Of a stretch of DNA of 46,155 bases, positions 2 to 39,526 are shown in pieces. This DNA comes from a virus. Numbering within the stretch: position 1 is the stretch's first letter; each line of letters opens with the position of its first letter. The DNA lies in IMG/VR virus record IMGVR_UViG_3300043444_000434, positions 1 to 46,155 of that record; one strand, written 5' to 3'. The notes under the pieces are model-generated. The model worked only from the letters and a program-made list of their open reading frames with translations, did no database searches and was not told where the DNA came from. The position numbers and the translations under genes were made by a program.

Positions 2-3000
2 CTTGTCACCTTGAATAATGGTCAAATGATTGAAGCTGTAAGATCAGAAGAACAATTTAAACGCATAAATGAAGATGGTAGTCTTTCTACTATTGATCCT
101 TCTACAATCTTGACAGCAAAAGATGCTCGTATTGCAGATTCTTCTAAAAGTAACAGTGGGGAACAAGTATTTCAGCCACATACAATTTTGTCTAGTTTTG
201 CAGTAAAAGCAGTTGATTCTGCTGAACAATTTGAGTTAGAAAAGAAACTAGCAGGAATGAAAAATCCTCAAGCTGGTATAAAGATTCATGCAGTAAAATT
301 AAGTGATGTTGCTGACAGACGTGTTCAACGTATTCAGGAAGTAGCTAATGAAGATGCTAAATATTCTGGATTAAAGAATAGACAACATGAGACATTTGAG
401 AATGCTACACAAACTGCAGCATTAATGGCATCACCAACTAAAAAGATTATGACTGTTTCACGACCTAAAGCTAGTGAACAACAGTTTGTTCTTGTTGGTG
501 AAATTATTGGTTCAGGAGAGAAATTCTATATTTACAGTAGTGATAATTTTGTATTTGTAAATAGTGATAATAGTACAGAACGTGTTGATTTTGCAAAACC
601 TGAACATCAAGAGTTAGTAAAATCCTTAGCTGTAAAATACAGTAAAGAGGGAAATGTATCTCTTAGTGATTCTGATGTTGCTAAACTTGCTGAATCAAGC
701 AAATTGTATCAAGATTTCAAATCTAAATTGTCAGAACAATTGACATCTCAATTTGAAACTGGAGTTAATTCTGTAGATGTTACTGCAGAATTTTTTAATA
801 ACTATGATGCATCAGGTAAAAGATCAAACGTTAGATCAAATAAAAGACTTAAGGATGCAATTGAAAGCAATCCTTCTTTAGTAAAGAAACTTGAAGTTGT
901 TACAGTTATCAATGGTACTGAAATTGTAAAAACAGAAACCATTGATGTACCCTTTATTTATAATAAGACAGGAGCTGATACTTATGAGTTACGTTCTATT
1001 TTGAATTCTAATCAACGCATTCTAGATGATAAGGGTGTTCAGTATACTCAAGAATCTTATGCTGAAAAAGTATTAGGAGTATATGGAGATAAAGTTCTTG
1101 GTTCAATTGTGAAACCAGAACATAAAAACCAAAACAATATCATACTTTCTTTTAAGGAAAATGGTAAGATCAGTTATATGACTGTCAATCCAATGTCTCA
1201 AATGGAAAGTAAAATTGAGTTTGCAAAATTCATTTTAAATGTTGCAGATACTCTTGCAAATAACAAAGGATTACTTTCACAAAATAAGTTTGCAAAAGAA
1301 AACTATACATTTAAACCTTTCAATAGTAGTAAAAACTTTGAGGGTCAAAATAGAAAACAAGCGCCATTCTATTTAAACTTTGCTTTATCTAAAGATGGAA
1401 AGTTACAAGTTGAGATTAGACCAACAAATAACGTTGCAGCAAACAACTACAAATTTATTAATGCTTCTGAGAATAAGGGTCAATTCAACTTTCCTATTCC
1501 TACAAATATTATTGACAATCTTGCAAAGGCTTTTAGAGGTGATGGACCATTGATTAAAGAAGTTGTTAAAAGCTATCCTTCACTTGCTTCATTGGATTTA
1601 AAGAATAACAAAGACCTTGAAAAGTTTTTAGATGCTATTGAAACACTAAGTCAATCTGAAACAGCATTACCAATTATTGGTAAACTGGCAAATACAATTG
1701 AAGAAAGTCAAAAAGCATTTGCTGAAATGTTAATTGCAAATGTTACAGATAAATTAGAGTCAAGAACTTCTATGTTTCCTGACTTTATGGAAAACTTAAA
1801 AAATGACTTTACATTCAATGGTGTTTTCAGACCTGAGTTTTTAGTTGCTGACTTATCAAATGGTTTAATGGTTCCAAGAGTTGAATCTTCTAAAAAAGAA
1901 GATAGAGCTGCTTTTTATAAAAATACTTTCAATATGAAAGTTGTAGAGGCAGACTATAAACGTTTTACCATTGTACCTAAATCATCAACAACTACAATTG
2001 TTCAAGATCAAGTATTAGCACCAATTACTGTTGCTGAAAAAATTCATGAACAAGGAGAATTAAACAGTACAGACAAAAATGAAACTGATCTTCCTGATAT
2101 TGAGGTATTCTCATTAGTAGAAGATTTACAAGTTAAAGTTGAATCTGACGAACAAAGACTTTCTTCAGTAGAATGGCTTAAACAAAGTTTACCTCAGTTT
2201 GGTATTGATACAGAATCTTTATCAGATCTTATTGCATTATCACAATTAGATGGTACTGTATTGGGTGCTTTTAAAGATAAAGTAATTTACTTAAATAATG
2301 CGTTGAAAGGTGAGGGTGTTGTATATCACGAAGCTTTTCATGGTGTGTTTAGACATTTACTATCAGCAACAGAAAGAAAAAATCTTATTGATGCTGTTAC
2401 ATCAAACAAAAAACATAGTGCTCAGTTTACTGAAGCAGCTTTAAAAGAGTTTGCACGTCAACGTAATTATTCATTTACACTTGATGTGTTAAAGCAGCTT
2501 AAGGCTGAAGAAATATTAGCAGATGGTTTTCAAAACTATATGCTTAAGAACACAAAACCAAAAGGAATTATTGGACAGTTAATGGCATTGCTTAAAAAGT
2601 TAATTGCAATGTTCTCAGAAAAAGGTTCTTATATTGATTCTGTTTATGGTAAAATCAAAACTGGTCAATATAGAAATGAAGTTATCTCTTCAGGTATTAT
2701 GGAGGGACAAACTGCATATAGTTTAATTCCTGGAATTAGACAAGTATCTAAAACCACTACTGGAATTATTGGTGAATCTACAAGTACTCTTAGCAGATCA
2801 GAACAAGATCAAATTGTAAATATGCTTGCTGGATTTATTATTGAAGATGGAGTAAAAGGTGAAAGTTTTTCTGATAAGTATGATCGTGTTGCAAAAGCTG
2901 TATTAGATGGTGTTTACAATATGGATGTTCTTTTAGCTAAGAACGCAGATCTTATTGCAAAAAATCCATCTCTTAAAGAAGAGATTATTAAAACAATTGG

Positions 3001-6000
3001 TCCTGTTTATTCTAACTATAGATTTATGCTTGGTGCAAGAATGAACGGTGAACAATTGTATGACATCAACTCAACAGATGATGCTTCTTACAATGAAAGA
3101 TTTAGCAAAAAGAATGTAATTGCAGAACAAGATAACAGTCTTGGTCAAGTTTCATATGAGATGCTAAAGGAAATGGTCAAAGACCATGTTAATAATGTTA
3201 ACGCTATTCTTGATGGAAGTGAAAAGTCTGCAGATAAAGAAATTCTTGAAAAAGAAATATCAGGTAAGAATGAAAATATCATATCTGATGATGATGCTGA
3301 ATTAGATGCTGAAACATCTGAATCAGCTGATTTTGATTCTTCATTCAATGAAGTTAATGCTCTTGAGTCTTTGCCTAGACAAATTAGAAAATTCTTGACC
3401 ATTGTTAAATATGATCAAGTACACCCTCAGTTAGGTATTAAAGTTCCTAGAATGATTGCAGGAGAACAAATATTTAGTTCTCTTTTACAAATTACGGCAG
3501 ACATTGATCCTAAGAATATTGTATCTCATATCAATACTACTGCAGACCAACTTATAGAAGACGGTTATACTGAATTTGGTGAGCAAATTAAAGCTGTATA
3601 CAATAAGCTTAGAGATTATACCAAAATGGTAGATGACAATGTTCCTACAACAAATAAGCAATTGTACAACATGATTGTTGATGTATTGCAAAAAACTGCT
3701 GTAGACTATGTGATGATATCACCTAAAACTGCAATTGAAACTATTGATCCAGAAAGTGGTGAAACAAGTTTTAGTACTGTAGGTTTTACAATTGTAGATA
3801 AAGTATTTGCTCAGGATATTGATAATAAGAAAAAAGACTTTTTAACTTCTGTAATTAAAAAATATAAGGAGAATAAAAACAATCCAGAATATATTGAGAA
3901 TGCTAAAAAGTTATTGAAGTTGTCAAAAACTTTAACAGGTAACTTTATTTTAAATGATGTTTCTGCTCAAAATGCTCAACTAGAAAATCTTACAAATGAT
4001 TTAACTGCAGCATTTAAAGAAATTGGCTTGAACTTTCCAAAGTCTTTGATCAGAATGTCAATTATGGCAATTGATCAAATTGACAACAAGGTTGCTTTGA
4101 ATGTTACTGGTGTGGCAAAATCTCACTATGATGCACACTCTAGATTTATTGCAGAAAAAAAATACTTAGAAAGAGATTTCTTTGTAAGTGTTAATCAAAT
4201 TTTTGACAATGTAATTCAAGGTGTTTCAACAAATGACTTTGCTATCATGTTAGATAATGCTAACAGTAATGATAAAACAGTCAATCGTTTTAATACAATC
4301 TTAAAGAAAGCATCTGAGTACATTGTAAAATATGATCCAAGCAATATTCTGCCTACAATTAGAAATGCAGAAGGCAAACCTATTTATAGATATGTAAGCA
4401 ATACCCCTGTAACATTATTGTTTCAATCAATACGTTCAAAAGGATTGCTTGCTACTTTAGAAGATGATCCTTTCTATGCGGAATTCCTAAAAGATTATTT
4501 CTTTGATAACGCAGCATTGACAGATTTACTCAATGGAAAAGATACAGATATGTCTAGAAAGGTTAAACTTTTAATGGACAATTTCAATGTTGCTTTATTT
4601 GGTGGAGTATCACAATCTGTTGGCCAAAAAACAAAAGACGGTAAGAGTTTTAAAAATATTGATAAGAGATCTTTGTATATTACAAATTATCTTGCATTCT
4701 TAAAAAGAACTACTTATTCTAGTTTTAAACAAGAGGTTGCGGAAGATGGTTCAGTAAAAGATGTAGTTACAAAAATTCAAACATATCAACGTTCTTTTTC
4801 TCAGTTAGAAGCATCACAGACAAATTATCTTGTAACAGGTATGTATAGTCCTTTTGCAAATAGTAAAGGATTGGTTCTTGATTCTAACAAACGTTTAAAA
4901 ATTGTTGGTACACTTGAAAGTGTTGTTAAACAAGAATATAATCGTATTGCAAGAGAATGGGCTAGAGCAGAACAAAACAAAAAAGATTTTGATTCTGGCA
5001 AACAAGCTCCTATCATAAATGCATACAATGGTGTTCTCAATAAAGAAGATCAATCAAAAGCAATCACTAATGATTCTAAACTAAGAGCATATAAGTTCAA
5101 TAAGCTTGCTGATTTCTTTGCTGCCAATTCTGAAATTGAAAGTAATGATGATGCTAACGGTTTGGCAGATTTTGCAAAACAAGGATTATCATATGAAGAA
5201 TTAGATACTGATATAAAAAATGCTTTACTGGATAGACTTAACATTTATGCACAAGAGCAATTGAACAAACATATTGCAATTCTTGAAGAATTAAAAATTG
5301 TAAATAAACAACAGGCTACTGCATTTGCAAACAAAAAAGGAGCTGTTGTTAATTACTATAATTCTGCATTCTTACCTTCTAAGGTTATTGTAGACAATGT
5401 TGTTGATTCTGATATATCAGAAGTTTACAAAAAAGCTTCAGACGTTTACAATGAGCGCAATGAAAAAATTACAAGTTCAAACCTTGAAGGATTAATTGCT
5501 GATTTTTACTTTAACAACTGGATGAACTCTTTATATTTCAATGAAATCATTGATGGTGACATTGCAATGAATGTTAAAGATTCAACAGACTACTTTAAGC
5601 GTAATAAAAAATTATTGGCTGGTGGTAGTAACATGAAAGAAGGTTATCATAGAGTAGCTTTCTTAAATACTATACAAGGATTTATCAGTGATAAATATCC
5701 TGAGAATGGACCATACTACTCAAAAGAAGAAATTATTAATGACTTTTCTATTTCACAAGAAGTAAAAGAATCATTGCTTTCTGACTTTGGAAGCTCTATG
5801 TATGATATTTTTGATGGCCAAAGTATTTCTTCTCTCATGCATCAAATTGATATGCATGAGTCAATGGGTAGATTGAGTCCTGAAATATTACATTCTTTAA
5901 TTGCAAAACATTATCGTGAGTTATCTGAAGCAGAGATTCGCGCAATGGAAGCAGGTAAAGTAGTAAACAACCCTAAAAAGACAATTACTGCATCAAGAAA

Positions 6001-9000
6001 CAGTTATCACAAACAATCTGAAAACTATATTGACAGATTGGATGTAAGTATTCTTGTACCAAAAACTGGGCAAACATTAAAACAAGCTCAGGAAACACTT
6101 CATGGTTTATACATGAATGTTTATTCATTGCGTTCACAAAGACAAGATGCTGTTTTAGCAAGTGAATTTGGTGAGGTTGATACAATTGATACTGAAATCA
6201 AAAGAAACATTGAAGACATCCATGAATATTTCAAACCTTTGCCTCACCGTAAAGCTTTGCATGATATTCTAAACTCAATGGAGTTTCATCAAATTGATCA
6301 ACTTATGGATACCACGGCATCTAAAAATGCTACAAGACTTCCTGTTGATTACTTTACTGAAGCTAAGAAACTTGAAAATAGTGAAGGTTATCTTAATCTA
6401 GCATTATCTGCTATGGATATAGATAACAAATACAAGTTCTTACAAGTTGAAACTTCTGGTGTTAAAGATAAAGCTAAGTTTTCTGTACAAAGCAAAGCGC
6501 TTATTGCAGCTGACTTGCAAAACTTAGATGCTATTATTCGCGCAAAAGGTGTTGACTTATCAGCATCTGAACAACAATCACTTTCAAAAATTGCAGCAAT
6601 ATTAGTTGACTATCAATCTTCATTAAAACAAATTGGTCAATCAAATCTTGCTACATTAAAAACTATCTTGAGAAAAGATGGTGACTTTGAAGTGGGTAAA
6701 ATATTTGAAATTATACGTACAAGTTTAGAAGAACAAGGCGCTCCAACATCAAGTTTGAAACTATTTGATCTTGATGCTTCTGGGAAACCAGTTCATAGTG
6801 CAAACCTTCCTGGTATACGCAATATGCTTGAGTACTACTTCTTCTCTCAATATTCTAAGAATGTTACTGATGAAAAAGGTTCAGGATTTAAAAATATACA
6901 CATTTCATCATTTGGTTATAATGTACTTGAAGATGAGAATGGTGATGTTATCACAACAGAACAATATCGTAAGAATCCTTCAGCTTATGGGATTGTAAAA
7001 TCAAGACCATTAGGTGTAACTGTAGAAGAAAAGAATGGTGTCAAAACTTATTTTGTTGAAGCCATCATGCCTAAACCTTTGTTTAAAAACAAACAGCATG
7101 AAAAATTCTATATGGACAACCTTACTAAAATGTTTGGTGTACGTATTCCTACTGAGGATAAACGTTCAATGGTTGCTATTAAAGTAGTTGACTTTATTGA
7201 TAGTTCTAATCTTAATGGCGTAATTGTACCACATTTTGTACACTTACTTGCAGGTTCTGACTTTGACGTTGACGCGTTGTATGGGCAAACATTTGCACAT
7301 TACTTTGACTTGTCAGGTAATCCAAAATTATATGGTTCATATGAAGCAGGAAAAGCAACTAACTTAAATAAGTTTGCTGAGTTTGTACAATACATGTCAA
7401 AAGATCCAGACTTAAAACCTTTAATCAAAAAAGAAATTAAGTCATTAATTGATAATCAGTCTTACAATGTAACTGAAAATGTTCTTGATGTTCTTTATCA
7501 TGCTGGATTTGATGAATCTGACTTTAATGGAGCAATGAATTTTGCTGAACTTAAATCAGATTATGATAATCTTGCAATTGAGATTGAAGAGTTGATGGAA
7601 ATCAGAGATGAGGCAAAAGAAGAGTTTGTTGATGCAATAAGAAGAAATGAAGTAGATCCTACAGATAGAACAGCATTGCAAGACAGACTTAATCTTGGTA
7701 AAGAGGTTGGAGAGTACAATGAAGAACTTGGTCAAAAGCGTAGTCAAAAGAATCAATATGGTAGAGAAGTAAGTAGAGCTAAACGCTTTACTTATGCTGG
7801 ATTAAAGACAGCTGCCACACTACAAGTATTTAGCAAACTTGGATTGCCAGCAAATGCTCAAATGTTTGAAGCAAATCCAAACTATGCATTATCTGTTAGA
7901 CCAATATTTCAAAACAAAAACTTACAAGCCAAACTTGACATTATGTCAAATGAAGCTGTTTATAAGTTCTTGTATAGAAATGAAAGATCATCAATTCAAA
8001 GATTTGAAGATATTGTAAATGCTTTTGGAATTGATCTTAAAGATTATTCTACAAAGTATAACATGTTTACTACGGATGCTGTAATTGCATCAAAGGTAGA
8101 TACTTCTATGTTTAAAGATGGTATTGGTATTACAGCAAACATTAATAAGTTCTTAGCTCTTGCTTCTCAATATGGACTTGAACTTAAGTCTGACAAAGTT
8201 ATTTGGGCATTTAAAAATGCAAACTTAGAACAAGTAAAATTAGATAAGTTTGGAACCTTGAATGCTGAAGATCAAAGAGTTATTGAAGTTATTGGTAACA
8301 TCTTAGGTATGTTTGCAGATGGTGCTAAAAAACCTATTCCTGCAGCATTACAAATGAACGAGGTCAATGCTGGTGTAACACTTGCAATGATTGGCGTTGG
8401 TTTATCACCTGAGTTTGCAGTGGCTTTTAATTTTATTCCTGAAATTAGAAAAGCAGTGCAAGATGTACAAGCTGCTAAATACGCTATTAGTGAATCTATT
8501 TCAACTAACTATACGTACTTAAGTAAAGAGATTGGCAATCAAATTAAAAACATTACAGATAAAAATAAAGATGCTCTCAAAAACTTAATCAGTGCTGGTT
8601 TAATTGATCCAAAATCTAATCCTTATAAAATCATAATTAATAAGGAAAAACTTGTTATTGATTTTAAAGCAGGTCAACTTAATCCTGCTGGTATTGCAAA
8701 CAATACTCTTAGAGTCAATGAGATTGGTTTTAATGTAACATCATTGATTGAAGTTACTGATAAAGCCACACCTGAAGAAAAAGCTACTAATAGAACTGAG
8801 TTTACTGATGATGAGCAAAAGATTATCTTGTTGCAATTATTTAAAGAACAAGCAAATCAAACTTATGATATAAGAAAAGCAGGAGCTATTATTGATTTGT
8901 TTAAGAAACTTAATCCTTCTTTTACAAACTTTGATAGATTACTTGCTAATGTTAGAACTCTCAATAGCGATGAAAGCATCTTCACTGAAGATTCAACTAA

Positions 9001-10621
9001 AAGAATTTTTGATGATAATCAAATTTGGCCAGAGTTATTAGCAGCAATTGAAGATTTAAATGATCAATCATCTAAGTTGTTCTTGGAAAGAACTGAATTC
9101 TTTTCTCCAATCAAGGCTGCTTTTGAATCTGTGTTTGTTGACAAAGCTAACATTGCAAAAATTATTACTAGTTATGTTGCGTTGAAACAATATCAACAGT
9201 TAATGCCTGGTAGTAGAAAAACAGGTACTGCAATGGATAGTCTTATTGAACAAGATGATAAAAACTTGACAGATACCTTTACACCAGAATATTGGTTTAC
9301 AAACACATTACCTGAAGAGTTAGAAGAGTTACAAAAAAAATATCCAAACAATAAGTTTTTACAATTGCTTAGACCAGATATTTCTGATAACAAAGCATTT
9401 TTAAAAACTGGTGGTTATGTAAATGAAAGAAGTATCAAGATGATTAACAAATCAAAAATCTCTGGCAAACTAGCTGATGAGATTTCTGACGATGCTACAT
9501 TTATTTTGAGAAATGAGAACATGTTTGCCAAAAAACTATTCTATCATGAATTAGCTAAAACAGGTCTTCAGTACAAGTCAGGTTCTTTCTTACAATATCT
9601 TGATCCAGGAATGATGATTCCTTTGTCTGGTTATATTCAAGACTTTATTCAAAAACTTGAGGAAACTAAAGGTAATCAATATAAGTTGATTGAAGCAATC
9701 AAGGAAGTAGTAGGTAAAGACGCTACTGAGAACGATGTTTATGATTTCTTTGATAATTTGTTTTTACAAATGGCATATGCAGCAACAAAAGAAGTTGGAA
9801 ACAATAATATCAAAATTGCTGCAGGCTTTTCAACTTCACCTATGTCTAACATAATGAAGTCTTTAAATGTAGATCCTGAAGTAAAAGATGCTCAAAAGGC
9901 AGCTATTGTGAAGGATATCTTAGAAAGATTCTCTGGTCAGTCATTAGCTGGGGCCAAAACAATTAGACTTAAATCTAAAGAGGGTACAACTAATGTAGAT
10001 GAAATTACATTTAATATGGATGTTCCTAAAGATATTGTTGGAGCTACTAAAGAAACAATGGATGAAATTGGCAAGAAGGTATCTATTACATTTGATAATT
10101 ATACCAAGAAGTATAATTTCCCACTGATTGTTTCCATTGGCTATAATAAATATCTTTTAAATGGTATTGACAATGAAATAGCTGATCATAGTTTTGGCAA
10201 AAGTGTTATCAATTCTATTATTGGAAAAGGAGAATATGTTAATCAAGGATACACTGCGCGTTATACATTGATCCCTGACCAGCTTACAACAGGTAGTTTG
10301 AGTTCTATTGGTTTTACAAAAGAAGCAGCTAAATCTTATATGGATTATGTTTCTGGTAAGAAAAAATTAGAGTATCTTGCACCTGAAAAAAAGGTTGAGG
10401 CTAAACCAGTAACTGATGTAAAAGAAGTAACTGTAAAAACTCAATTGGAGATTGACATGGATAATCTAAATCTTACAGATGATGTTGTTAATGCATTGTA
10501 TTCTGAAACTAGAAAATCCATGAGTATTGAAAACTTTAAACTTGCTGCTCAAAATGTAATTGCTAACTTAAGAGCAACAATGTCAAACAATGAAATTTTA
10601 GAAAAAATTAAGTGCTTATAA
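2..10621 (+). CDS. Giant virion RNA polymerase-like protein (5' end outside window)
   Basis: The frame is open to the left edge. The first possible start inside the window is a TTG at 11, and the codons before it are also open, so the N-terminus is missing. Residues are numbered from 11. R2378-I-P-T followed by GSDFDVD (D2417, D2419, D2421) matches in order and spacing the beta-prime double-psi barrel of multisubunit RNA polymerases (RAPT ... NADFDGD). The three Asp would bind catalytic Mg. Lysines K2283, K2289 and K2294 just upstream are candidates for the beta-like barrel. H773-E-A-F-H777 plus E833/E834 (AEEILAD) looks like a zincin metallopeptidase of the kind seen in phage polyvalent proteins. 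crAss-like phages package such polymerases in the virion and inject them to transcribe early genes. The length, above 3,500 residues, exceeds the roughly 2,200 of the phage phi14:2 enzyme. The polymerase call is well supported by motif; the protease and its role are inferred. Confidence 0.8.
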   Translation, partial: LVTLNNGQMIEAVRSEEQFKRINEDGSLSTIDPSTILTAKDARIADSSKSNSGEQVFQPHTILSSFAVKAVDSAEQFELEKKLAGMKNPQAGIKIHAVKLSDVADRRVQRIQEVANEDAKYSGLKNRQHETFENATQTAALMASPTKKIMTVSRPKASEQQFVLVGEIIGSGEKFYIYSSDNFVFVNSDNSTERVDFAKPEHQELVKSLAVKYSKEGNVSLSDSDVAKLAESSKLYQDFKSKLSEQLTSQFETGVNSVDVTAEFFNNYDASGKRSNVRSNKRLKDAIESNPSLVKKLEVVTVINGTEIVKTETIDVPFIYNKTGADTYELRSILNSNQRILDDKGVQYTQESYAEKVLGVYGDKVLGSIVKPEHKNQNNIILSFKENGKISYMTVNPMSQMESKIEFAKFILNVADTLANNKGLLSQNKFAKENYTFKPFNSSKNFEGQNRKQAPFYLNFALSKDGKLQVEIRPTNNVAANNYKFINASENKGQFNFPIPTNIIDNLAKAFRGDGPLIKEVVKSYPSLASLDLKNNKDLEKFLDAIETLSQSETALPIIGKLANTIEESQKAFAEMLIANVTDKLESRTSMFPDFMENLKNDFTFNGVFRPEFLVADLSNGLMVPRVESSKKEDRAAFYKNTFNMKVVEADYKRFTIVPKSSTTTIVQDQVLAPITVAEKIHEQGELNSTDKNETDLPDIEVFSLVEDLQVKVESDEQRLSSVEWLKQSLPQFGIDTESLSDLIALSQLDGTVLGAFKDKVIYLNNALKGEGVVYHEAFHGVFRHLLSATERKNLIDAVTSNKKHSAQFTEAALKEFARQRNYSFTLDVLKQLKAEEILADGFQNYMLKNTKPKGIIGQLMALLKKLIAMFSEKGSYIDSVYGKIKTGQYRNEVISSGIMEGQTAYSLIPGIRQVSKTTTGIIGESTSTLSRSEQDQIVNMLAGFIIEDGVKGESFSDKYDRVAKAVLDGVYNMDVLLAKNADLIAKNPSLKEEIIKTIGPVYSNYRFMLGARMNGEQLYDINSTDDASYNERFSKKNVIAEQDNSLGQVSYEMLKEMVKDHVNNVNAILDGSEKSADKEILEKEISGKNENIISDDDAELDAETSESADFDSSFNEVNALESLPRQIRKFLTIVKYDQVHPQLGIKVPRMIAGEQIFSSLLQITADIDPKNIVSHINTTADQLIEDGYTEFGEQIKAVYNKLRDYTKMVDDNVPTTNKQLYNMIVDVLQKTAVDYVMISPKTAIETIDPESGETSFSTVGFTIVDKVFAQDIDNKKKDFLTSVIKKYKENKNNPEYIENAKKLLKLSKTLTGNFILNDVSAQNAQLENLTNDLTAAFKEIGLNFPKSLIRMSIMAIDQIDNKVALNVTGVAKSHYDAHSRFIAEKKYLERDFFVSVNQIFDNVIQGVSTNDFAIMLDNANSNDKTVNRFNTILKKASEYIVKYDPSNILPTIRNAEGKPIYRYVSNTPVTLLFQSIRSKGLLATLEDDPFYAEFLKDYFFDNAALTDLLNGKDTDMSRKVKLLMDNFNVALFGGVSQSVGQKTKDGKSFKNIDKRSLYITNYLAFLKRTTYSSFKQEVAEDGSVKDVVTKIQTYQRSFSQLEASQTNYLVTGMYSPFANSKGLVLDSNKRLKIVGTLESVVKQEYNRIAREWARAEQNKKDFDSGKQAPIINAYNGVLNKEDQSKAITNDSKLRAYKFNKLADFFAANSEIESNDDANGLADFAKQGLSYEELDTDIKNALLDRLNIYAQEQLNKHIAILEELKIVNKQQATAFANKKGAVVNYYNSAFLPSKVIVDNVVDSDISEVYKKASDVYNERNEKITSSNLEGLIADFYFNNWMNSLYFNEIIDGDIAMNVKDSTDYFKRNKKLLAGGSNMKEGYHRVAFLNTIQGFISDKYPENGPYYSKEEIINDFSISQEVKESLLSDFGSSMYDIFDGQSISSLMHQIDMHESMGRLSPEILHSLIAKHYRELSEAEIRAMEAGKVVNNPKKTITASRNSYHKQSENYIDRLDVSILVPKTGQTLKQAQETLHGLYMNVYSLRSQRQDAVLASEFGEVDTIDTEIKRNIEDIHEYFKPLPHRKALHDILNSMEFHQIDQLMDTTASKNATRLPVDYFTEAKKLENSEGYLNLALSAMDIDNKYKFLQVETSGVKDKAKFSVQSKALIAADLQNLDAIIRAKGVDLSASEQQSLSKIAAILVDYQSSLKQIGQSNLATLKTILRKDGDFEVGKIFEIIRTSLEEQGAPTSSLKLFDLDASGKPVHSANLPGIRNMLEYYFFSQYSKNVTDEKGSGFKNIHISSFGYNVLEDENGDVITTEQYRKNPSAYGIVKSRPLGVTVEEKNGVKTYFVEAIMPKPLFKNKQHEKFYMDNLTKMFGVRIPTEDKRSMVAIKVVDFIDSSNLNGVIVPHFVHLLAGSDFDVDALYGQTFAHYFDLSGNPKLYGSYEAGKATNLNKFAEFVQYMSKDPDLKPLIKKEIKSLIDNQSYNVTENVLDVLYHAGFDESDFNGAMNFAELKSDYDNLAIEIEELMEIRDEAKEEFVDAIRRNEVDPTDRTALQDRLNLGKEVGEYNEELGQKRSQKNQYGREVSRAKRFTYAGLKTAATLQVFSKLGLPANAQMFEANPNYALSVRPIFQNKNLQAKLDIMSNEAVYKFLYRNERSSIQRFEDIVNAFGIDLKDYSTKYNMFTTDAVIASKVDTSMFKDGIGITANINKFLALASQYGLELKSDKVIWAFKNANLEQVKLDKFGTLNAEDQRVIEVIGNILGMFADGAKKPIPAALQMNEVNAGVTLAMIGVGLSPEFAVAFNFIPEIRKAVQDVQAAKYAISESISTNYTYLSKEIGNQIKNITDKNKDALKNLISAGLIDPKSNPYKIIINKEKLVIDFKAGQLNPAGIANNTLRVNEIGFNVTSLIEVTDKATPEEKATNRTEFTDDEQKIILLQLFKEQANQTYDIRKAGAIIDLFKKLNPSFTNFDRLLANVRTLNSDESIFTEDSTKRIFDDNQIWPELLAAIEDLNDQSSKLFLERTEFFSPIKAAFESVFVDKANIAKIITSYVALKQYQQLMPGSRKTGTAMDSLIEQDDKNLTDTFTPEYWFTNTLPEELEELQKKYPNNKFLQLLRPDISDNKAFLKTGGYVNERSIKMINKSKISGKLADEISDDATFILRNENMFAKKLFYHELAKTGLQYKSGSFLQYLDPGMMIPLSGYIQDFIQKLEETKGNQYKLIEAIKEVVGKDATENDVYDFFDNLFLQMAYAATKEVGNNNIKIAAGFSTSPMSNIMKSLNVDPEVKDAQKAAIVKDILERFSGQSLAGAKTIRLKSKEGTTNVDEITFNMDVPKDIVGATKETMDEIGKKVSITFDNYTKKYNFPLIVSIGYNKYLLNGIDNEIADHSFGKSVINSIIGKGEYVNQGYTARYTLIPDQLTTGSLSSIGFTKEAAKSYMDYVSGKKKLEYLAPEKKVEAKPVTDVKEVTVKTQLEIDMDNLNLTDDVVNALYSETRKSMSIENFKLAAQNVIANLRATMSNNEILEKIKCL

Positions 10622-10622
10622 T

Positions 10623-13600
10623 ATGAACACATGTCCAAATCCAAATAGTCCTGAGTGGAAAGAACTAGTTGCTAAACTGGGAGAAGCTCAGGCTATGACA
10701 GCTTATACTTTAAATGGTAATAATACACCATCTGTTGAACAAGCAGAAGCTATTATAAACAAACTCAAGATTCAAGAAAAGGATGAACAAATTTCTAGAT
10801 CATCAGATGAGTTTAAATTGCAAAGAGCTGTTCAGCAAAGAACATATTTAGAGCAACAAAAGTTTGATGCCAACTATAAACAAAAAGAAACAATTGACAA
10901 GTTAATTGCAATGAATGATGCTTATCAACAGTTTCTTAAGAGTAACATTGAACTTGCAAAAAATGGTCAACCAACAATTAAAACAATCAGTGTATCAAAC
11001 TTTATTGGTTCTGCAGATTTTAATGTAGACCCACATGAATATGAGGCATTTAAATTGTTTGGTACATTTATGCACGAAGTATTGGAAATTGCTCAGCTTA
11101 AATCTCTTGAGCAAAATAAAGCAATTCACAATATTTTAGATGAGGATTTCTTTAAAGAAACCTATGATAATTATACTAAGAAAAATCCTTTCTTTATTGA
11201 AAACCTTGATGAAAAGGAAATGTTTGAAATGGCTAAGCAATTGGCAATGAATGTTTCAATTTTCAATGATAAAGGTTTTAAAATTTTACCTGAGATTACA
11301 GTAATGGGAACTACACGTAGTGGTTCTAAGGTACTTGGGCGTTTAGATTTACTTTTAATTGATAGTCAAGGTACTGTAAAAGTATTTGACTTTAAGACAA
11401 AGAAAGTGCAAAATCTTATGGAAACGCCTCCTGGTGGAAAACCTCAAGCAAATCCTGATTTAGCATTTTTAAATCTTGCACATAAATCATTTGCTGTATC
11501 AAATAAAGAAGGTACATCACCTGCATTTGGAAAACAAACAAGAACTGCATATGACACATGGACATTGCAATTGAAAGTTTATGAAAACATTTTGATGCAA
11601 TCAGATATCGCAGTAAAGGATAGTTCTATTGTAGCATTGATGTATCAGACTGATGACAACAAAAAGTATTTGGGTTCAGATATTCATGTGTTTGAAGGAG
11701 ATAACTATTACAGCTATGCTGCTGTTGTTTCATTACCAGGAGATGATGGAAGATGGAGAACTATTGATACAATGAATGCTGGTAAGTTGAAAGACTTACG
11801 AGATGTTGTTGATACAGAAATTCCAACATCAGAAGTAGAAGAAAAAGAAAAGACTGCTAAAAAAGCAAAGTCTTTAGAGTTTACTCCAAGAGAAGAAGAT
11901 GACAAAGCATTGAGAGAAACACTTAAAAATGCTATTGATAATGAACTTAGTGAAACTTACAAACGTATTCAAGAATTAAAGAATGCTGATCCTGAAAAAC
12001 AAAATCCTAGACTTCAAGAAATGCTTGAAGCCAGAACAAAAAGTTTACAGGACTTTAAAGCAATTACTTCTACTATACAAAATGCAACTTCTGAGAACTT
12101 AAATTATTCAAAAAATTTAGCACTTGCTATTGAAGCAACGGCTGCTGACTTTGAAAAATTAGCTAAACTTTCAGATGAGGCTATTGTAAATTTTAAATTG
12201 GATAGAAATTCATTGACTACAAAAGAAGGTCAACAAATTTCTGAAGCATACAAGAAATCAAAATCACTTACTGTAGTTCTTGATATTATCAAAGAGATTA
12301 CAGATGAAGCAAGATCAAATCCTGAAAATAATATTACTGTAGATAGTAATATCATGAAGGTCATTTCTGGAATTGAAGCTGATAAAGAAAGAATTCAATC
12401 AAACTTTGCAAAAGCTGCAATGTATAATTCTATCAAAGTACTTCAATCAATTGGTGACAAAACATTCCAGGACGTTAACGCTGATCTTAAAGAAGCTGCT
12501 GAAGCAAAACTTATTATTCTAAAAGAACAATATGAAAAGCTTAAAAACGGTAAAGCTTTAGGTATTGGGCAAACTATCAAATCTTCTTTGTTAAGCTTTA
12601 TGAGTAAAGACTACAAACAAAAATTGGCAGAGAGAATGGGTGAAGGTAGTGATGCTTTAATGTATGAATTAGAAAAGCTTGAAAAACAAATCATTACGCA
12701 ACAAGCTATTATTGATGGTGGACTTAGTAGTGATTATGATTCTTTAGAAAGATACATTAGTGGTGTAACGGATTCTACAAGTGATTTATACTTGGGTTCT
12801 CCAACAGCATTTAATAGTAATAGTTGGTTGCAAAATATGATGCTTGACAAGTTTATAGCATCTGCATCCAACAGTGGTATTGAAATTTCAGCATTTACAA
12901 TGATGTTGAAAAATGCAGAAGGTGTTGCTAGAATGAATGTTCAGAATGATTTAGCAGCTTTAAAGTTTGATCAAAAACGAGATAAGCTTTTACAAAGGAT
13001 GACAGTTGAGCAAATCAATGCTAAGTTGTCAGAACGTAGAACATCCACTATTATAGACAAGGAAGGCAATCCTGTTGAAAAAAGTGAATTGTTCATGCTA
13101 AAACCATTCAGTGAAGAATATGAAAATACATATAGAGCATTCAGTCAAAAGATTAAACAACTTAACAAAGAGATAGAATCTGCAAAAGAAGTTTATAACT
13201 CAAGCATTAAGACGCCTGAAGAAGCTCAGAACAAACAAGCATTGCTTGACAAAATTGCTGAAAAACAAACAGAGCATAATAACTATATTAAGTGGATGAT
13301 GGAAAACTGTCATCTTCCTTATAATAAGAAATTCTATGAACTTCAGTTAAATATTCCTTTAGAAATTAGAAACCAGATTCAAGAGAAGTATTTAGAAATT
13401 GAAGTTATTACACACCAAGTTGGTAAAGGTAATGAGGTTCTTCTTGAAGAACACGATTTTGATAGACTTGAAGAATTGGAAATTGAAATTCAAAAACTTA
13501 GATCTAGCATAAAGGAAACAAATCCTAAGTATGCTGAACTAATGGCTGAGTTTAATGATCTATTTGAGTTTGATGTTAATCAAGCATACTTTGATAGAAT

Positions 13601-16523
13601 GGAATTCAATGCTAGAACAAAGTATGAAACAGAGTTTCCAGAAGAATGGGAGAAATGGAAAAAAAGAAATACTGTTACTAGACCTACTAGTGAGTGGTAT
13701 GAAGAACTAACAGCTTTATATGAGGCACGTGCTGATTTGTTTGGCTCTGATCCTGAAATTAGTGATCTTATGCAACAAAGAAGAAATATTCTTTCTCCAT
13801 ACAAAATTGGTGGTAGAATTAAACCACAATACTTAAGTCAAATTGAAATTGATCAAATCAGTGAAATTGATGCTAGAATTGAAGACATCATTGAAGCTAA
13901 AAGTAAATCTGGTGGTACATTAACTGCTGATGAAAAAAGAGCATCAAGAGAGATTAGTGATGCAATCAAACGTATTGCTTCATTACAACTTAGTGAATCT
14001 TACAATGATGCTTTTGAAGTAAAAGTTAAATCTTTATTTGAGCACAAGAACTCAATTATTAGTGCTGAGACTAAACTTGCAGAAGCAAGAACTAAAGGTG
14101 ATAAAAAAGCTATTGACGAAGCAGAGGAAGAATTGATCTTTGAGGAAACTCAATTTGGTATTCAAGAGGCTGCTTTTGAGAAATGGTATAATATGCACCA
14201 TGAAAACAAGTATCAAAGTATTTTAACAGGTTATGACATTAGAAACAATAGAGTTCCTAAAAGTTACAACTATGAGAAGATGCCTGCACCTGCTGTTAAA
14301 GAACAGTACATGGAAACAGTACCTCATCCAAAATATAAAATCAAACGATTAAAAGAGTCTTCTAAAAACCCAGACTTTTTGAAATCTCCAGATGGTATTC
14401 CAATGCCAAAAGCAATTACAAAGAATGCAGATGGTAATTATGTTATTGATCCAGCTTATCAGAACTCTTCAAACATTAATAGCAAATATGCAGACTTAAT
14501 GAATGACCAAGAATTGTTTTCATTCTATAATGACACAATGAAAATGTTCTTTAATTTACAATCAAAAGTAGAGGGACGTAAGATTGGATACATGGTCCCT
14601 GGTTATGCAGCATCTACAATTGAGAACTTAAAAGGTAAAGGTTTAAGTCAAGCTGTCAAGGATGAGTTTGAAAAATTTGTAGATAAAAATGTAAGACAGG
14701 TAGGTAGTATTGACAAAATAGAAAACACTTTTGGTGAACAAGGTGCTAGATTAAGACACAGATTTACAGAGCAGTTGCCTGAAAACATGCAAACTCAAGA
14801 TGCTATTGGTGCAGTAATTAAATATGCCACTGAAGCTCATTATAATATTGCAATGCAAGAGGTTGCTCCTCAAGCAGATATGTATATTGAACACCTTGAA
14901 TACATGGCTGAACAACTTCAAAAGAAAGTTCAACAAGGTAAACCTTTGACTGTAAAAGATGAAGCTACTGGAAAAGATGTTAAAATTGACATCTCTAAAA
15001 GATTAGCTCAATTAAATAATGTAATTGAGATATTACAGTTTGAACGTAAAAAGTTTTTATTTGGACAAACTGAAACTAATGAACAAGTAAGTAAAGCTCT
15101 TATTAAGAGAATGAATGCAATTTTTGCATATACAAGTTTAATTAGAATTGGTTTTGATACTGTAAACCAGACTAAAAATTATATTTCTGGTAACGTTCAA
15201 GCATTCATTGCTGCTGGAGGATTGGATAGTGATAAATACACTAGAGAAGATTTCATGTGGGCAAAAGCTAAGGTGTATGGTTATAATGGATTCTTGCATC
15301 AATATTTTGCAGACTGGGGTCGCGTGAGTGACGTTGGTCAAGATACAATGCTTTACCGTTTCTTTAACCCTGCACAAAAAGACTTTATCAAATATGTTTC
15401 TGAAATTTCAGGAAACAAAGGTCGTAGACTTGCAGGCAAAGCTACAAATTTCCAGGAACTTGGATTCATGATGCAAGACAAAGGTGATACTGAAATTGCA
15501 GTTACTGTAATGTATGCTGTAATGAATCACCATAAGTTTAGAGTTATTGAAAAACATGATGCTGAAGGTAATCCAATTTATCAGAAAGATGAACAAGGTA
15601 ATGATGTATATGTACCTGTACATGAGATCTATATCAAAGATAAAGATGGAATGCTTACAAGAAGAAAAGACGTAGAGTACACTCAACAAGATGAAAACAG
15701 AATTAGAAACATTATCTATTCTGAAATGAGAAGAGCTCAAGGTAACTACGCAAAAGCAGATCAAACTAAGTTTGAAGAAAACATTATTGGTAAAATGGTA
15801 TTCTTTTTTAGAAAATATCTTGTGCCTCAATTACTTAACAGATTTGGTTACTTACGTCCAAACTGGGAAGGATCTGAAGCAGCCATGGGATACTGGAGAG
15901 CATTATGGTTAGCTAAAAATGCATATGGTGCTAAAGAGATAGGAAAACACTTATTACTTGGAAGCAAGCGTATGAGTAAAAATACTGACAACAAAATGGG
16001 TCAATTCTTAACTAGAAAGGTTGGCCAAGCAAGAAGAGACATGATTGCAATGTTGATTTTAGCAGTTCTTGGAAGAATGGCTCTTATGTATGTACGTAAA
16101 AAAGATGATGATGATGAAGAGTTAGGCATGCTTGAAGGAAACGCAATTAGAGTTCTTTGGGGTGTGAAAGGTGAAACATTATCAATGTGGCCTGTAGGAG
16201 CTGGTGGAGATGAGTATATTAAAAATTTTACTACTGCCACAACGTATCTAAGAGAGTTACAAACGGCTAAGAAGTTTGCATCACATGCTTGGAACTATGG
16301 TCTTGCAATGACTTTAAATGGTGGAGAAGAACCTGATCCTGCTTATGACAGCGAATTCTACCAAGAAATCTGGAAAGATGCCTTTTATTCACGCAAGTAT
16401 GGAGCATATGAAAAAGGTGACGCTAAGATTGGTAAAGATCTTATGGACCTAACAGGTTTGAAAAACTTCAGAAATACCATAAATCCTAACTACATCATTG
16501 ATCAGATGAAAGGTAAACAATAA
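10623..16523 (+). CDS. Giant putative cargo/ejection protein with N-terminal RecB-type nuclease domain
   Basis: A 1,966-residue protein starting one base after the RNA polymerase-like gene stops, so the two are probably co-transcribed and co-packaged. The N-terminal 300 residues carry a PD-(D/E)XK pattern: an H-E pair (MHEVLEIAQ), then G239-R-L-D242, then D256-F-K258-T-K. This is typical of RecB/Cas4-like nucleases. The middle is long, charged and helical, with heptad-like stretches suggesting coiled coils. Near the C-terminus are an aromatic amphipathic segment from about residue 1725 (MVFFFRKYLVPQLL) and a hydrophobic helix at about 1807-1825 followed by KKDDDDEE, which could contact or cross a membrane. 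In crAss-like virions very large proteins fill the tail or capsid as cargo. The nuclease could act on host DNA or process phage DNA after entry. The domain call is fairly secure, the virion role is inferred, and most of the protein is unrecognised. Confidence 0.7.
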   Translation: MNTCPNPNSPEWKELVAKLGEAQAMTAYTLNGNNTPSVEQAEAIINKLKIQEKDEQISRSSDEFKLQRAVQQRTYLEQQKFDANYKQKETIDKLIAMNDAYQQFLKSNIELAKNGQPTIKTISVSNFIGSADFNVDPHEYEAFKLFGTFMHEVLEIAQLKSLEQNKAIHNILDEDFFKETYDNYTKKNPFFIENLDEKEMFEMAKQLAMNVSIFNDKGFKILPEITVMGTTRSGSKVLGRLDLLLIDSQGTVKVFDFKTKKVQNLMETPPGGKPQANPDLAFLNLAHKSFAVSNKEGTSPAFGKQTRTAYDTWTLQLKVYENILMQSDIAVKDSSIVALMYQTDDNKKYLGSDIHVFEGDNYYSYAAVVSLPGDDGRWRTIDTMNAGKLKDLRDVVDTEIPTSEVEEKEKTAKKAKSLEFTPREEDDKALRETLKNAIDNELSETYKRIQELKNADPEKQNPRLQEMLEARTKSLQDFKAITSTIQNATSENLNYSKNLALAIEATAADFEKLAKLSDEAIVNFKLDRNSLTTKEGQQISEAYKKSKSLTVVLDIIKEITDEARSNPENNITVDSNIMKVISGIEADKERIQSNFAKAAMYNSIKVLQSIGDKTFQDVNADLKEAAEAKLIILKEQYEKLKNGKALGIGQTIKSSLLSFMSKDYKQKLAERMGEGSDALMYELEKLEKQIITQQAIIDGGLSSDYDSLERYISGVTDSTSDLYLGSPTAFNSNSWLQNMMLDKFIASASNSGIEISAFTMMLKNAEGVARMNVQNDLAALKFDQKRDKLLQRMTVEQINAKLSERRTSTIIDKEGNPVEKSELFMLKPFSEEYENTYRAFSQKIKQLNKEIESAKEVYNSSIKTPEEAQNKQALLDKIAEKQTEHNNYIKWMMENCHLPYNKKFYELQLNIPLEIRNQIQEKYLEIEVITHQVGKGNEVLLEEHDFDRLEELEIEIQKLRSSIKETNPKYAELMAEFNDLFEFDVNQAYFDRMEFNARTKYETEFPEEWEKWKKRNTVTRPTSEWYEELTALYEARADLFGSDPEISDLMQQRRNILSPYKIGGRIKPQYLSQIEIDQISEIDARIEDIIEAKSKSGGTLTADEKRASREISDAIKRIASLQLSESYNDAFEVKVKSLFEHKNSIISAETKLAEARTKGDKKAIDEAEEELIFEETQFGIQEAAFEKWYNMHHENKYQSILTGYDIRNNRVPKSYNYEKMPAPAVKEQYMETVPHPKYKIKRLKESSKNPDFLKSPDGIPMPKAITKNADGNYVIDPAYQNSSNINSKYADLMNDQELFSFYNDTMKMFFNLQSKVEGRKIGYMVPGYAASTIENLKGKGLSQAVKDEFEKFVDKNVRQVGSIDKIENTFGEQGARLRHRFTEQLPENMQTQDAIGAVIKYATEAHYNIAMQEVAPQADMYIEHLEYMAEQLQKKVQQGKPLTVKDEATGKDVKIDISKRLAQLNNVIEILQFERKKFLFGQTETNEQVSKALIKRMNAIFAYTSLIRIGFDTVNQTKNYISGNVQAFIAAGGLDSDKYTREDFMWAKAKVYGYNGFLHQYFADWGRVSDVGQDTMLYRFFNPAQKDFIKYVSEISGNKGRRLAGKATNFQELGFMMQDKGDTEIAVTVMYAVMNHHKFRVIEKHDAEGNPIYQKDEQGNDVYVPVHEIYIKDKDGMLTRRKDVEYTQQDENRIRNIIYSEMRRAQGNYAKADQTKFEENIIGKMVFFFRKYLVPQLLNRFGYLRPNWEGSEAAMGYWRALWLAKNAYGAKEIGKHLLLGSKRMSKNTDNKMGQFLTRKVGQARRDMIAMLILAVLGRMALMYVRKKDDDDEELGMLEGNAIRVLWGVKGETLSMWPVGAGGDEYIKNFTTATTYLRELQTAKKFASHAWNYGLAMTLNGGEEPDPAYDSEFYQEIWKDAFYSRKYGAYEKGDAKIGKDLMDLTGLKNFRNTINPNYIIDQMKGKQ

Positions 16524-26061: not shown

Positions 26062-26976
26062 ATGCCAATAGGAAGTGGTTCAGTTTCAGCAACAGGTATA
26101 AATATGGAATTAGGCAGATCGTCTAATTCTAACCTGTCTATTGATACAGCAGAAAATGGAGGATATGGTGCTATAAATACTTGTAGTCCATCATATCCTA
26201 GTGCATCAAATCCTGCATCATTTAGTGAATGGAGAAACTACAATCATAGTTACGCTTGTTGTTATACTCCCGCTATTACTTCATTAAGTAATGTAACATC
26301 TTCAAGTGTAGATGTGTATTGGGTAGGTTTGACAAACTGTTCAGCATCTCATATTGAGTATAGTACAAATCAAGTAAACTGGACATCAACTTCTGGAGGA
26401 TGTACATCACCTAGAACTGTTAGTGGACTAGCTTCTAGTACAACATATTATTTTAGAATAAGAATTACTTGTACTTCAACTGGTGGTTATTCTGGATATT
26501 CCAACACAATGTCTGCTACAACATCTGGTAGTTACCCTGCATACGGGACTTATTTGTCACAATATTGTTCAGGTTGCACACTTTACTATAGATATGCAAA
26601 TGGTTCTGGTGGATCATATGATGTATCTCAAGGATGTTCTACAGTTTGTGGAGGATGTTGTTGTGCACCAGCATATGGGACTTATTTATCAGCATCATGT
26701 TCTGGTTGTGACTATTATGGATATTATGCAGATGGTTGTTATGGTTCATATGCATCACTTATACAAGCTAATTCACCATCATGTGGATGTGGTGGTAATG
26801 TAGATTGTTACGAAGGATACGCAATGGAAGGAGATTATGAATACACGCCTTGTGGTGGAAGAAGACCTGTTTATGGAACTTCTTGGTCTTGGGGAGAATA
26901 TCAAGGATGTATTGACTTTAGTATGGGAAACTTTGGTGTATATCACAATAATGAAGGTTGTCTTGCTGTAATGTAA
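26062..26976 (+). CDS. Cysteine-rich fibronectin-III tail protein
   Basis: A 304-residue protein. The N-terminal segment (VSATGINMELGRSSNSNLSI) recurs in Bacteroidota phage tail proteins. Residues 69-153 have a fibronectin type III pattern (SVDVYWVG, hydrophobic strands, LASSTTYYFRIRITC). The C-terminal half consists of short repeats, PAYGTYLSQYCSGC and PAYGTYLSASCSGC, with a partial PVYGTSWSWG. At DNA level the two full units start at 26536 and 26668. There are 22 cysteines in all, very unusual for a virion protein and suggesting disulfide or metal cross-links. It starts one base after the preceding fibre gene, so it is likely translated with it and may be a fibre-tip or surface-binding protein. 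FN3 domains on phage surfaces commonly bind carbohydrate; here that is inference. Confidence 0.7.
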   Translation: MPIGSGSVSATGINMELGRSSNSNLSIDTAENGGYGAINTCSPSYPSASNPASFSEWRNYNHSYACCYTPAITSLSNVTSSSVDVYWVGLTNCSASHIEYSTNQVNWTSTSGGCTSPRTVSGLASSTTYYFRIRITCTSTGGYSGYSNTMSATTSGSYPAYGTYLSQYCSGCTLYYRYANGSGGSYDVSQGCSTVCGGCCCAPAYGTYLSASCSGCDYYGYYADGCYGSYASLIQANSPSCGCGGNVDCYEGYAMEGDYEYTPCGGRRPVYGTSWSWGEYQGCIDFSMGNFGVYHNNEGCLAVM

Positions 26977-37555: not shown

Positions 37556-39526
37556 TTAAAAGAGAGATAATTGTGTTAATTGCATATGTGGAGGAAGAAC
37601 ATCAGATGTTTTTTCTATCTTTTTAATCTCTTCATAGATCTTATCTAGATAAAACTTTTCATCTACCTTGTATTCTTCCCATGGTTTGTCTTCAAATTTA
37701 TTGAAGATTGTTTGAAGAGCTTTTCCACTCTCCAGTTGGATTTCCCTGCCATCTGGGTTGCACTTGATAATTTTAATTCCATTCTCAGAAATATAGTAAC
37801 GCACTAACTTTTGAAGTTTGTTTGTTACATATTCACCATTTTTGAATCCTCTTTCTTCAAAATACCAGTCACCTCTAAGTTTTGCACCAACGCAATAATC
37901 ATAGATGTTGCGGTTTTCTTTTAAGAATTCTGCTGGATCTTTTCCTTTAACAAAATAAGCATACCAAGCTTTAGGAACAATCAGTAAAGATTTGTTCTTA
38001 TGTAGTGCTAATTCATCAAACTCAAAACGTCCTTTACACTTTGTTTTACCATCTTTGTATATTGCAATGTAGTTATTTACATCACCAATAATCATTTTCT
38101 GGTATTCAACAGTTTCAAGTTGTAATTGAGTTAATGCTTCCCACTCTTTGCATATGTCATAAAACTTAGATTCATGTTCCTCATCTACAAGAAATTCAAG
38201 ACCATCCGTATTTTGCATCAATGGAATTGCACCAGGAATTCTAGTTGCAATCATCTCATACAGCATACTAAGAAGTAATTGTCCATTCACAGTAATTCTG
38301 AATGTAAACTCAGGATCATATAGGAAAGAATACTTGTTCTTACTTAAACCATAAGTTGAGTTAAGAATAATCTTAAATAAGTAGTTTAGTGGAGAAGATT
38401 TTGGGTACTTCTTACGCTCTTCAAAGAACCACTCATACAGTTCACAGAACTCTTCTTTTGGTAAATGAGCAGGGGACCAGTTGTTTTTAATTGCTAAATT
38501 TGGATAAAATGAAGTAACGTCAGCACTCAGAATCTTTTTTCCAGGTGTAGCTTCATATATACCAGATTTAATACAACCATGTAGTCCACCCAATCCATAA
38601 TCTGTAGGCGTGTTTTTGAAATTCATCCTATATTTAGGACCCGCTTCTTCTTTTTCAGTGTTTATTGATGTATCAACAACTAGACTTTTGAACCAGTTGT
38701 GTACAGCTTTAAACTCAGGAGTTTGAAATTCAACAAAAGGTAAAATGATATCTCTTACAGTAACAAAAGGACGTTCTGTCTTCATTATTTTAATATCATT
38801 TTTGTTTCTTCCTAACTTATCACTCAAGAAGTGTAAGAACATTTCTTTACTTATGCGAGGTTCACTTGCACTGTGCAAAGAAAGGTTATATGTGGCACTC
38901 AGTTCAGCTCTAAGGTTGATCTGACTTGCCATTACTTGCTCTCCTTTTGGATTCTTTAGTATAAAGATTTCTTTTGTTGAGAGTACGTCATTGATACAGT
39001 AGTTAACAACCATATCCAGTGTTTCTTGATCTTCTACTGGTTGATTATGTGGATGAGGCATCTCTTCTACATTAAACCAATCCATAGAAAACTGAACCCA
39101 TTTTAGAGAAGTACGTTTTGCATTACTGTCCCAATGGTTCAGCTTAAATATATCTACACATGGAATAGTAAGCTTAAATTCTGGATAATCAAGGAATTCA
39201 CCCCTGTTAGACTTGTCAATAATAGTTTTTACATAAGCATAAATTCTTGCTGCAAATTCTTCACCCTGAAGACCAGAGTAAAAATCTAAGTTCTCAAGAA
39301 TATGTTCAGTAATCTGCGCGTCAAACGCTAAGTTATTGTAACCAAAATGCCAATCTCTATTTTGCTGATTTTCAAGTAAAAATCTAATAAACTCATAAGT
39401 ATCATTGCGTTGTTTACCAATCACAAAGATGTGTTGTTCATCAGAATCATAAGACCTAAAAACAGCAACAAAACAATTGATAATGGTTTCATAGTCCATT
39501 ATCCAGAATTTTCGCTGTCTAGTCAT
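37556..39526 (-). CDS. Family B DNA polymerase with 3'-5' exonuclease
   Basis: A 656-residue replicative polymerase, compact for family B. The proofreading domain has D11-Y-E13 (Exo I), N64/N65-L-A-F-D69 (Exo II) and Y176-C-I-N-D180 (Exo III). The polymerase domain has YGLGGLHG (310-317), motif A D336-V-T-S-F-Y341-P, motif B K385-I-I-L-N389-S-T-Y-G393, and motif C N439-T-D441-G. Motif C is NTDG in place of the usual DTDS; D336 and D441 would bind the two metals. No terminal-protein region or intein is seen. It overlaps the preceding gene by TAATG. It probably works with the DnaB-type helicase and primase encoded upstream. Confidence 0.92.
   Translation of the reverse strand: MTRQRKFWIMDYETIINCFVAVFRSYDSDEQHIFVIGKQRNDTYEFIRFLLENQQNRDWHFGYNNLAFDAQITEHILENLDFYSGLQGEEFAARIYAYVKTIIDKSNRGEFLDYPEFKLTIPCVDIFKLNHWDSNAKRTSLKWVQFSMDWFNVEEMPHPHNQPVEDQETLDMVVNYCINDVLSTKEIFILKNPKGEQVMASQINLRAELSATYNLSLHSASEPRISKEMFLHFLSDKLGRNKNDIKIMKTERPFVTVRDIILPFVEFQTPEFKAVHNWFKSLVVDTSINTEKEEAGPKYRMNFKNTPTDYGLGGLHGCIKSGIYEATPGKKILSADVTSFYPNLAIKNNWSPAHLPKEEFCELYEWFFEERKKYPKSSPLNYLFKIILNSTYGLSKNKYSFLYDPEFTFRITVNGQLLLSMLYEMIATRIPGAIPLMQNTDGLEFLVDEEHESKFYDICKEWEALTQLQLETVEYQKMIIGDVNNYIAIYKDGKTKCKGRFEFDELALHKNKSLLIVPKAWYAYFVKGKDPAEFLKENRNIYDYCVGAKLRGDWYFEERGFKNGEYVTNKLQKLVRYYISENGIKIIKCNPDGREIQLESGKALQTIFNKFEDKPWEEYKVDEKFYLDKIYEEIKKIEKTSDVLPPHMQLTQLSLF

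Follow-up and report, generated by a model that had tools for sequence, protein, structure and literature searches.

A giant chain of the crAss-like virion RNA polymerase family on a viral contig, and cysteines at the chain ends of its transcription block

The locus and its reading frames

The window, the whole stretch of 46,155 bases that was analysed, begins within a reading frame of 3,539 codons (W1), which is open at the 5' edge and is followed on the same strand by a second giant frame (W2). Residues of W1 are numbered here from nucleotide 2.

2..10621, plus strand: W1, putative 5'-truncated giant crAss-like virion RNA polymerase chain (reading frame, complete orthologues, and tblastn matches to annotated RNA polymerase subunits)
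2327..2341, plus strand: HEAFH, zincin-like HExxH motif of W1, aa 776-780, with AEEILAD at nucleotides 2504-2524 (HE[AGS]FH lies upstream of the core in relatives)
6389..8461, plus strand: RNA polymerase core region of W1, aa 2130-2820, homologous to residues 1170-1656 of the phi14:2 virion RNA polymerase (vRNAP)
7142..7171, plus strand: RIPTEDKRSM motif of W1, kept among W1 homologues
7259..7273, plus strand: DFDVD, predicted metal-binding catalytic loop, D2420/D2422/D2424, aligned with DFDID 1361-1365 of the phi14:2 vRNAP
8114..8140, plus strand: KDGIGITAN motif of W1, collinear with KSGVGITAN of the phi14:2 vRNAP
8312..8335, plus strand: FADGAKKP motif of W1, collinear with FVDNAKDP of the phi14:2 vRNAP
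10613..10615, plus strand: penultimate cysteine of W1, the only cysteine among its 3,539 residues, on the C-terminal side of the W1/W2 junction
10623..16523, plus strand: W2, 1,966-aa partner with a PD-(D/E)XK domain (Pfam PF12705, E = 3.5e-5; hhalign to phi14:2 gp076)
10632..10634, plus strand: Cys4 of W2, on the N-terminal side of the W1/W2 junction

The true N terminus of W1 lies beyond the window. A complete orthologue, encoded by a 120-kb relative, is 3,773 aa long and carries DFDVD near residue 2,645, and ~3,773 aa are expected for W1, in which a zincin-containing subunit and a catalytic subunit form one polypeptide. Translation of nucleotides 7142-7273 on the plus strand gives RIPTEDKRSMVAIKVVDFIDSSNLNGVIVPHFVHLLAGSDFDVD, confirming the predicted RIPT...GSDFDVD and placing the motif at R2381 and D2420/D2422/D2424; the numbering of the original prediction began at the TTG at nucleotide 11 and is offset by three residues from this count. 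DxDxD appeared in 1,248 of 2,000 shuffled W1 sequences (62%) and is uninformative alone, because it is expected by chance in a protein as long as W1. The combination RxPT-x30-45-DxDxD appeared in 1 of 2,000.

Core homology and conservation of the catalytic loop

When the W1 core was compared with named phages by tblastn, crAss-like phages were matched, and the best matches were genes annotated as "putative RNAP catalytic subunit" (E values of 3e-12 to 4e-12). A W1 family profile of 12 sequences aligned by hhalign with the phi14:2 vRNAP over 468 columns (probability 96.6, E = 5.1e-10), with DFDVD on DFDID 1361-1365 and with KDGIGITAN and FADGAKKP on their counterparts. The phi14:2 protein, annotated as gp077, has the sequence of PDB entry 6VR4, the characterised virion RNA polymerase. 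The profile also aligned with Carjivirus gp44 (E = 5e-15), and an unrelated giant protein of phi14:2, used as a control, gave no alignment. Escherichia coli RpoC, a further control, gave no meaningful alignment with the profile. The proposed likeness to cellular beta-prime holds for the character of the loop, but direct homology to the cellular subunit was undetectable. Pfam, PHROG, and single-sequence PDB searches with W1 returned nothing usable, and the W1 profile returned chance matches only from PDB sequences.

A template-free AlphaFold model of W1 aa 1830-2960 reached a mean pLDDT of 64 and a pTM of 0.47, with the catalytic loop below a pLDDT of 50. Foldseek comparison of the core model with 350,542 PDB chains placed only 6VR4 below an E value of 0.001 (E = 2.4e-4, probability 1.00). 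This sole significant match would fit the double-psi barrel that had been proposed; the barrel is supported by homology, as the loop itself was modelled too poorly to show it in detail. The idea that DFDVD is a chance motif draws on the frequency of DxDxD expected at this length, but its probability is negligible, as it is refuted by the homology E values, the 468-column profile alignment with phi14:2, and the 6VR4 structural match. Judged by homology, the W1 motif forms the catalytic loop of a known enzyme type, the virion RNA polymerase of Crassvirales. The central claim of the original prediction, a beta-prime-like catalytic loop in a crAss-like virion-type polymerase, is supported by tblastn, the phi14:2 alignment, and aspartate conservation.

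Viral contigs were scanned with the window protein and its alignments, and the widest scan comprised 52 loci. DxDxD was present in all 52 (DFDVD in 19, DFDID in 19, DLDID in 10, DLDVD in 2, and DKDID in 2). The three aspartates, whose conservation had been put forward as a check, were constant, and the spacer residues varied (F/L/K and V/I). Among described phages, crAssphage gp44 and others read GSDFDVD, and jaberico and phi14:2 read DFDID. The valine in place of glycine, previously thought worthy of remark, is not unusual, as crAssphage gp44 has the same GSDFDVD and a fourth-position valine is normal in this order. Genome contigs searched for W1 relatives yielded none, and viral contigs searched with crAssphage gp44 yielded no matches.

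The window phage is assigned to the Crassvirales by proxy, because a near relative, with a W1 core 83% identical to that of the window, carries genes for a Crassvirus capsid protein (PF23898, E = 5e-33), a crAss tail ring protein, and a crAss-type portal (matches to PF23898, PF24228, and phrog_6547), all lying outside the window fragment. A tree built from the core placed the window clade in one group apart from Steigviridae and Intestiviridae (100/95; long branches, with Suoliviridae left out). The closest named relative of the portal at L091:569-3298 belongs to Leptolyngbya phage Lbo-JY46, whose recorded host is a cyanobacterium (31.5% identity over 99%). The 99 kb of that phage examined contained no RNAP-like DFD[VI]D motif. 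The DNA polymerase encoded at 37556-39526 of the window (minus strand) is most similar to those of the non-crAss phages Ab3-TPeters and BS46 (both Acinetobacter) and Nitrincola 1M3-16, which suggests that the replication polymerase of the window phage may have been exchanged with non-crAss phages.

Partition of the block and cysteines at chain ends

The length of W1 had been regarded as exceptional, a view that does not survive comparison: a review (PMC10136315) describes crAss-like RNAP genes that reach ~6,000 aa, and Carjivirus gp44 has 4,070 aa. According to a survey (PMC7886860), several giant multidomain proteins, some bearing a PDDEXK domain, make up a transcription block, and W1 is another partition of this known block, of a size ordinary for the group. 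In every one of the 43 complete relatives, HE[AGS]FH precedes the core on the same polypeptide, and its median distance to the catalytic loop is 1,672 residues. The zincin region of W1 matches the C-terminal zincin part of the RNAP-associated subunit that Kehishuvirus encodes separately (E = 1.1e-13) and is collinear with the zincin of Carjivirus gp45, a match that is weak alone (E = 0.02); its structural model was of poor quality and matched nothing in the PDB. The C-terminal part of W2 is homologous to phi14:2 gp076, the third giant virion protein (hhalign E = 1.6e-8), and its comparison with the C-terminal half of Carjivirus gp44 gave a weak, collinear hint only. Part of the W1 flanks, once described as unexplained, is accounted for by a zincin-like subunit counterpart before the core and by RNAP homology just after it; no function was assigned to the region between zincin and core or to the last ~700 residues. 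At the W1 C terminus, ~75 residues (10385-10621 of the window) are conserved beyond a hypervariable linker.

With A denoting the zincin subunit, B the RNAP, and C the third chain, the block is divided into A, B, and C in Steigviridae, into A and BC in Intestiviridae (the C part of BC resting on length, annotation, and the weak hint from the W2 comparison), into AB and C in Suoliviridae cr10_1, and into A', A''B, and C in the window clade, where a preceding protein (ORF-1, ~1.5 kaa), W1, and W2 stand in tandem. The phi14:2 vRNAP ("gp66" in the literature) shares DxDxD, RIP, KxGxGITAN, and F-D-AK-P with W1 in the same order, but it has 2,180 aa and no HExxH in its chain, whereas W1 relatives have ~3,650-4,575 aa and the zincin-like module. 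Carjivirus communis (crAssphage, Intestiviridae) has an identical GSDFDVD and a zincin upstream of the RNAP at a similar distance, but its zincin and RNAP are on separate proteins (gp45 and gp44), and annotation joins the RNAP to one more subunit. The window instead has zincin and RNAP fused, with the partner separate. The phiCrAss001-type proteins gp47, gp49, and gp50 (Kehishuvirus, Steigviridae) likewise comprise zincin-like, RNAP, and third subunits, but as three separate chains with the zincin subunit on the opposite strand. The giant protein of Suoliviridae cr10_1 (4,460 aa) carries HEAYH and GSDFDID in one polypeptide, so that the zincin-RNAP fusion is not unique to the window clade, and a separate downstream ORF has an N-terminal cysteine; unlike the window clade, with its ~1.5-kaa protein, cr10_1 has no separate preceding chain with a terminal cysteine. 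Outside the order, gp96 of Thermus phage P23-45 is a giant virion protein that unites a metallopeptidase domain with a two-barrel RNAP (DFDGD) in a single polypeptide (PMC10770324), but it is fused to the tape measure protein of a long-tailed phage, and the likeness drawn here is one of description.

The giant proteins of the block are nearly free of cysteine, and most of them have their cysteines at breaks between chains. At such breaks, one cysteine lies among the last residues of the upstream protein and another at residue 3-6 of the next protein, as at the W1/W2 junction; the same placement was found at L092:14303-18739 and at L033, L093, L107, and L013. All 40 W1 homologues that are complete at the C-terminal end have a cysteine in their last six residues, although distant C termini look unalignable. 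The protein preceding W1 also ends with a cysteine (31/31). N-terminal cysteines occur in 39/39 downstream proteins and 35/36 W1 homologues. The lone exception, at L075, starts with MAEN, as the preceding protein does; that protein appears to be fused to W1, and therefore there is no junction there. An additional split-off piece has both terminal cysteines at L055, L056, L067, and L077. The outer chain ends, in the complete W2 homologues listed and at the start of the preceding protein (one read), lack cysteine. In the same four loci with the extra piece, a tail like the W1 C terminus, ending in KCL, closes a separate small ORF.

Among 254 background ORFs of the same genomes, 8 had an N-terminal and 19 a C-terminal cysteine, a slightly stricter count than the junction test, which accepted alternative starts. 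The 35 complete W1 chains (140,392 residues) contain 93 cysteines, 69 of them terminal against 0.28 expected, a contrast whose significance is overstated by the relatedness of the sequences; 20 of the 35 have exactly two cysteines, both terminal. In phi14:2, the block has 4 cysteines in 5,398 residues: the last residue of A, residue 3 and the penultimate residue of B (the only two in the 2,180 aa of the vRNAP), and residue 3 of C. The rule extends to Kehishuvirus (cr112_1 and tikkala), Intestiviridae, including the end of gp45 and residue 3 of gp44 in Carjivirus communis, and Suoliviridae, where the cysteine lies 11 residues from the end. Intestiviridae BC chains have more internal cysteines (4 to 17), and the exceptions crAss002 and cr110 probably reflect annotated starts that precede an MSC. 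The agreement of four Crassvirales lineages with different break points is a stronger argument for the rule than the counts. Chain A of Kehishuvirus is encoded on the strand opposite to B and C and still obeys it; the rule thus concerns proteins, not gene junctions, and a nucleotide-level effect of gene junctions is ruled out. Some other structural proteins of the near relative are also cysteine poor, so that the placement, rather than the depletion, is specific. That these giant proteins are almost cysteine free except at ends where chains follow one another is new here: no report of the pattern was found in the literature searched, although the phi14:2 structure paper fell outside that search and may contain prior notice.

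Proposed function and delivery

From its homology and conservation, its place in the block, and the way the chains are divided, W1 is best explained, with high confidence, as the catalytic chain of a virion RNA polymerase of Crassvirales. The biology of this family is treated in three reports (PMC7886860, PMC10172136, and PMC10136315). W1 would be a single-chain, two-barrel enzyme in which the beta-prime-like loop DFDVD holds the catalytic Mg2+. Its residues before the core carry a zincin-like module, which other Crassvirales have within a separate RNAP-associated protein; RNAP homology continues directly past the loop, and W2 is the block's third chain. On the model of phi14:2 and crAss001, W1 would be packed in the capsid as cargo, be extruded through the tail partly unfolded along with its partners, and refold in the cytoplasm, where it would transcribe early (replication) genes independently of the host RNAP. 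According to PMC10172136 and PMC10136315, homologous proteins are virion cargo and must be partly unfolded to pass a narrow tail; one of them is an active early-gene polymerase. Catalysis, packaging, ejection, and early transcription by W1 are all predicted on this analogy.

The extreme divergence of W1 and the poor modelling of its catalytic loop would also fit a protein derived from an RNAP that no longer polymerizes and serves as a structural or ejection protein with a fossil barrel. This is improbable, as the three aspartates are kept in 52/52 loci while neighbouring residues vary and RIPTEDKRSM, KDGIGITAN, and FADGAKKP are kept too. Slightly less probable still is a non-virion polymerase made in the cell for later genes, like gp64 of P23-45, a phage that does have one enzyme of each type, virion and non-virion (PMC10770324). 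Against it, proteomics underlies the annotation of the homologous phi14:2 block proteins as virion proteins, the crAss001 homologues were found in virions (PMC10172136), and W1 of the near relative comes after structural genes on the same strand. As a virion RNA polymerase, W1 adds to a known enzyme family a deep branch that is known here from metagenomic viral contigs only. The identification is of a known kind, and what this analysis adds to it is the account of the size of W1 and the terminal-cysteine rule, which could matter more than the polymerase itself.

The rule offers a possible covalent, redox-released mechanism for the ordered exit of several 150-500-kDa proteins from a phage head by way of a narrow tail. 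The pattern of cysteines suggests, at about even odds in our judgement, that the giant transcription proteins are carried as a disulfide-linked, head-to-tail train for injection. The C-terminal cysteine of each chain would bond to the N-terminal cysteine of the next, the set would thread through the tail in fixed order, and reduction of the disulfides in the cytoplasm would separate the chains; near-complete loss of internal cysteines would prevent wrong bonds. If so, the block could be split or fused at different points between families because a peptide bond and a disulfide would be interchangeable links. Virions of crAss001 were analysed with and without reduction and contain disulfides in the tail and portal vertex, and the account of them in the available text of PMC10172136 makes no mention of the cargo termini. 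The main alternatives are a shared metal site and anchors tying each chain to the portal or capsid; a pair of thiols can bind zinc with other ligands, and such roles for the junction cysteines are conceivable but rather doubtful. The outer chain ends are likewise packed yet lack cysteine, the unalignable C termini showed no conserved partner ligands, and the near-complete internal loss is what an end-to-end disulfide system would need.

A phage thioredoxin, sought in the window by a CxxC motif, was not recognised. In contrast to the cysteine-poor W1, a cysteine-rich, fibronectin-like protein of 304 aa without a PHROG match is encoded at 26062-26976 of the window (plus strand) and adjoins the tail fibre genes. 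The structural block of the near relative encodes, at L091:12741-14342, a 533-aa protein with 37 cysteines, unusual for a phage, and with three spondin-like thrombospondin type-1 domains (PF19028, E = 2.8e-36).
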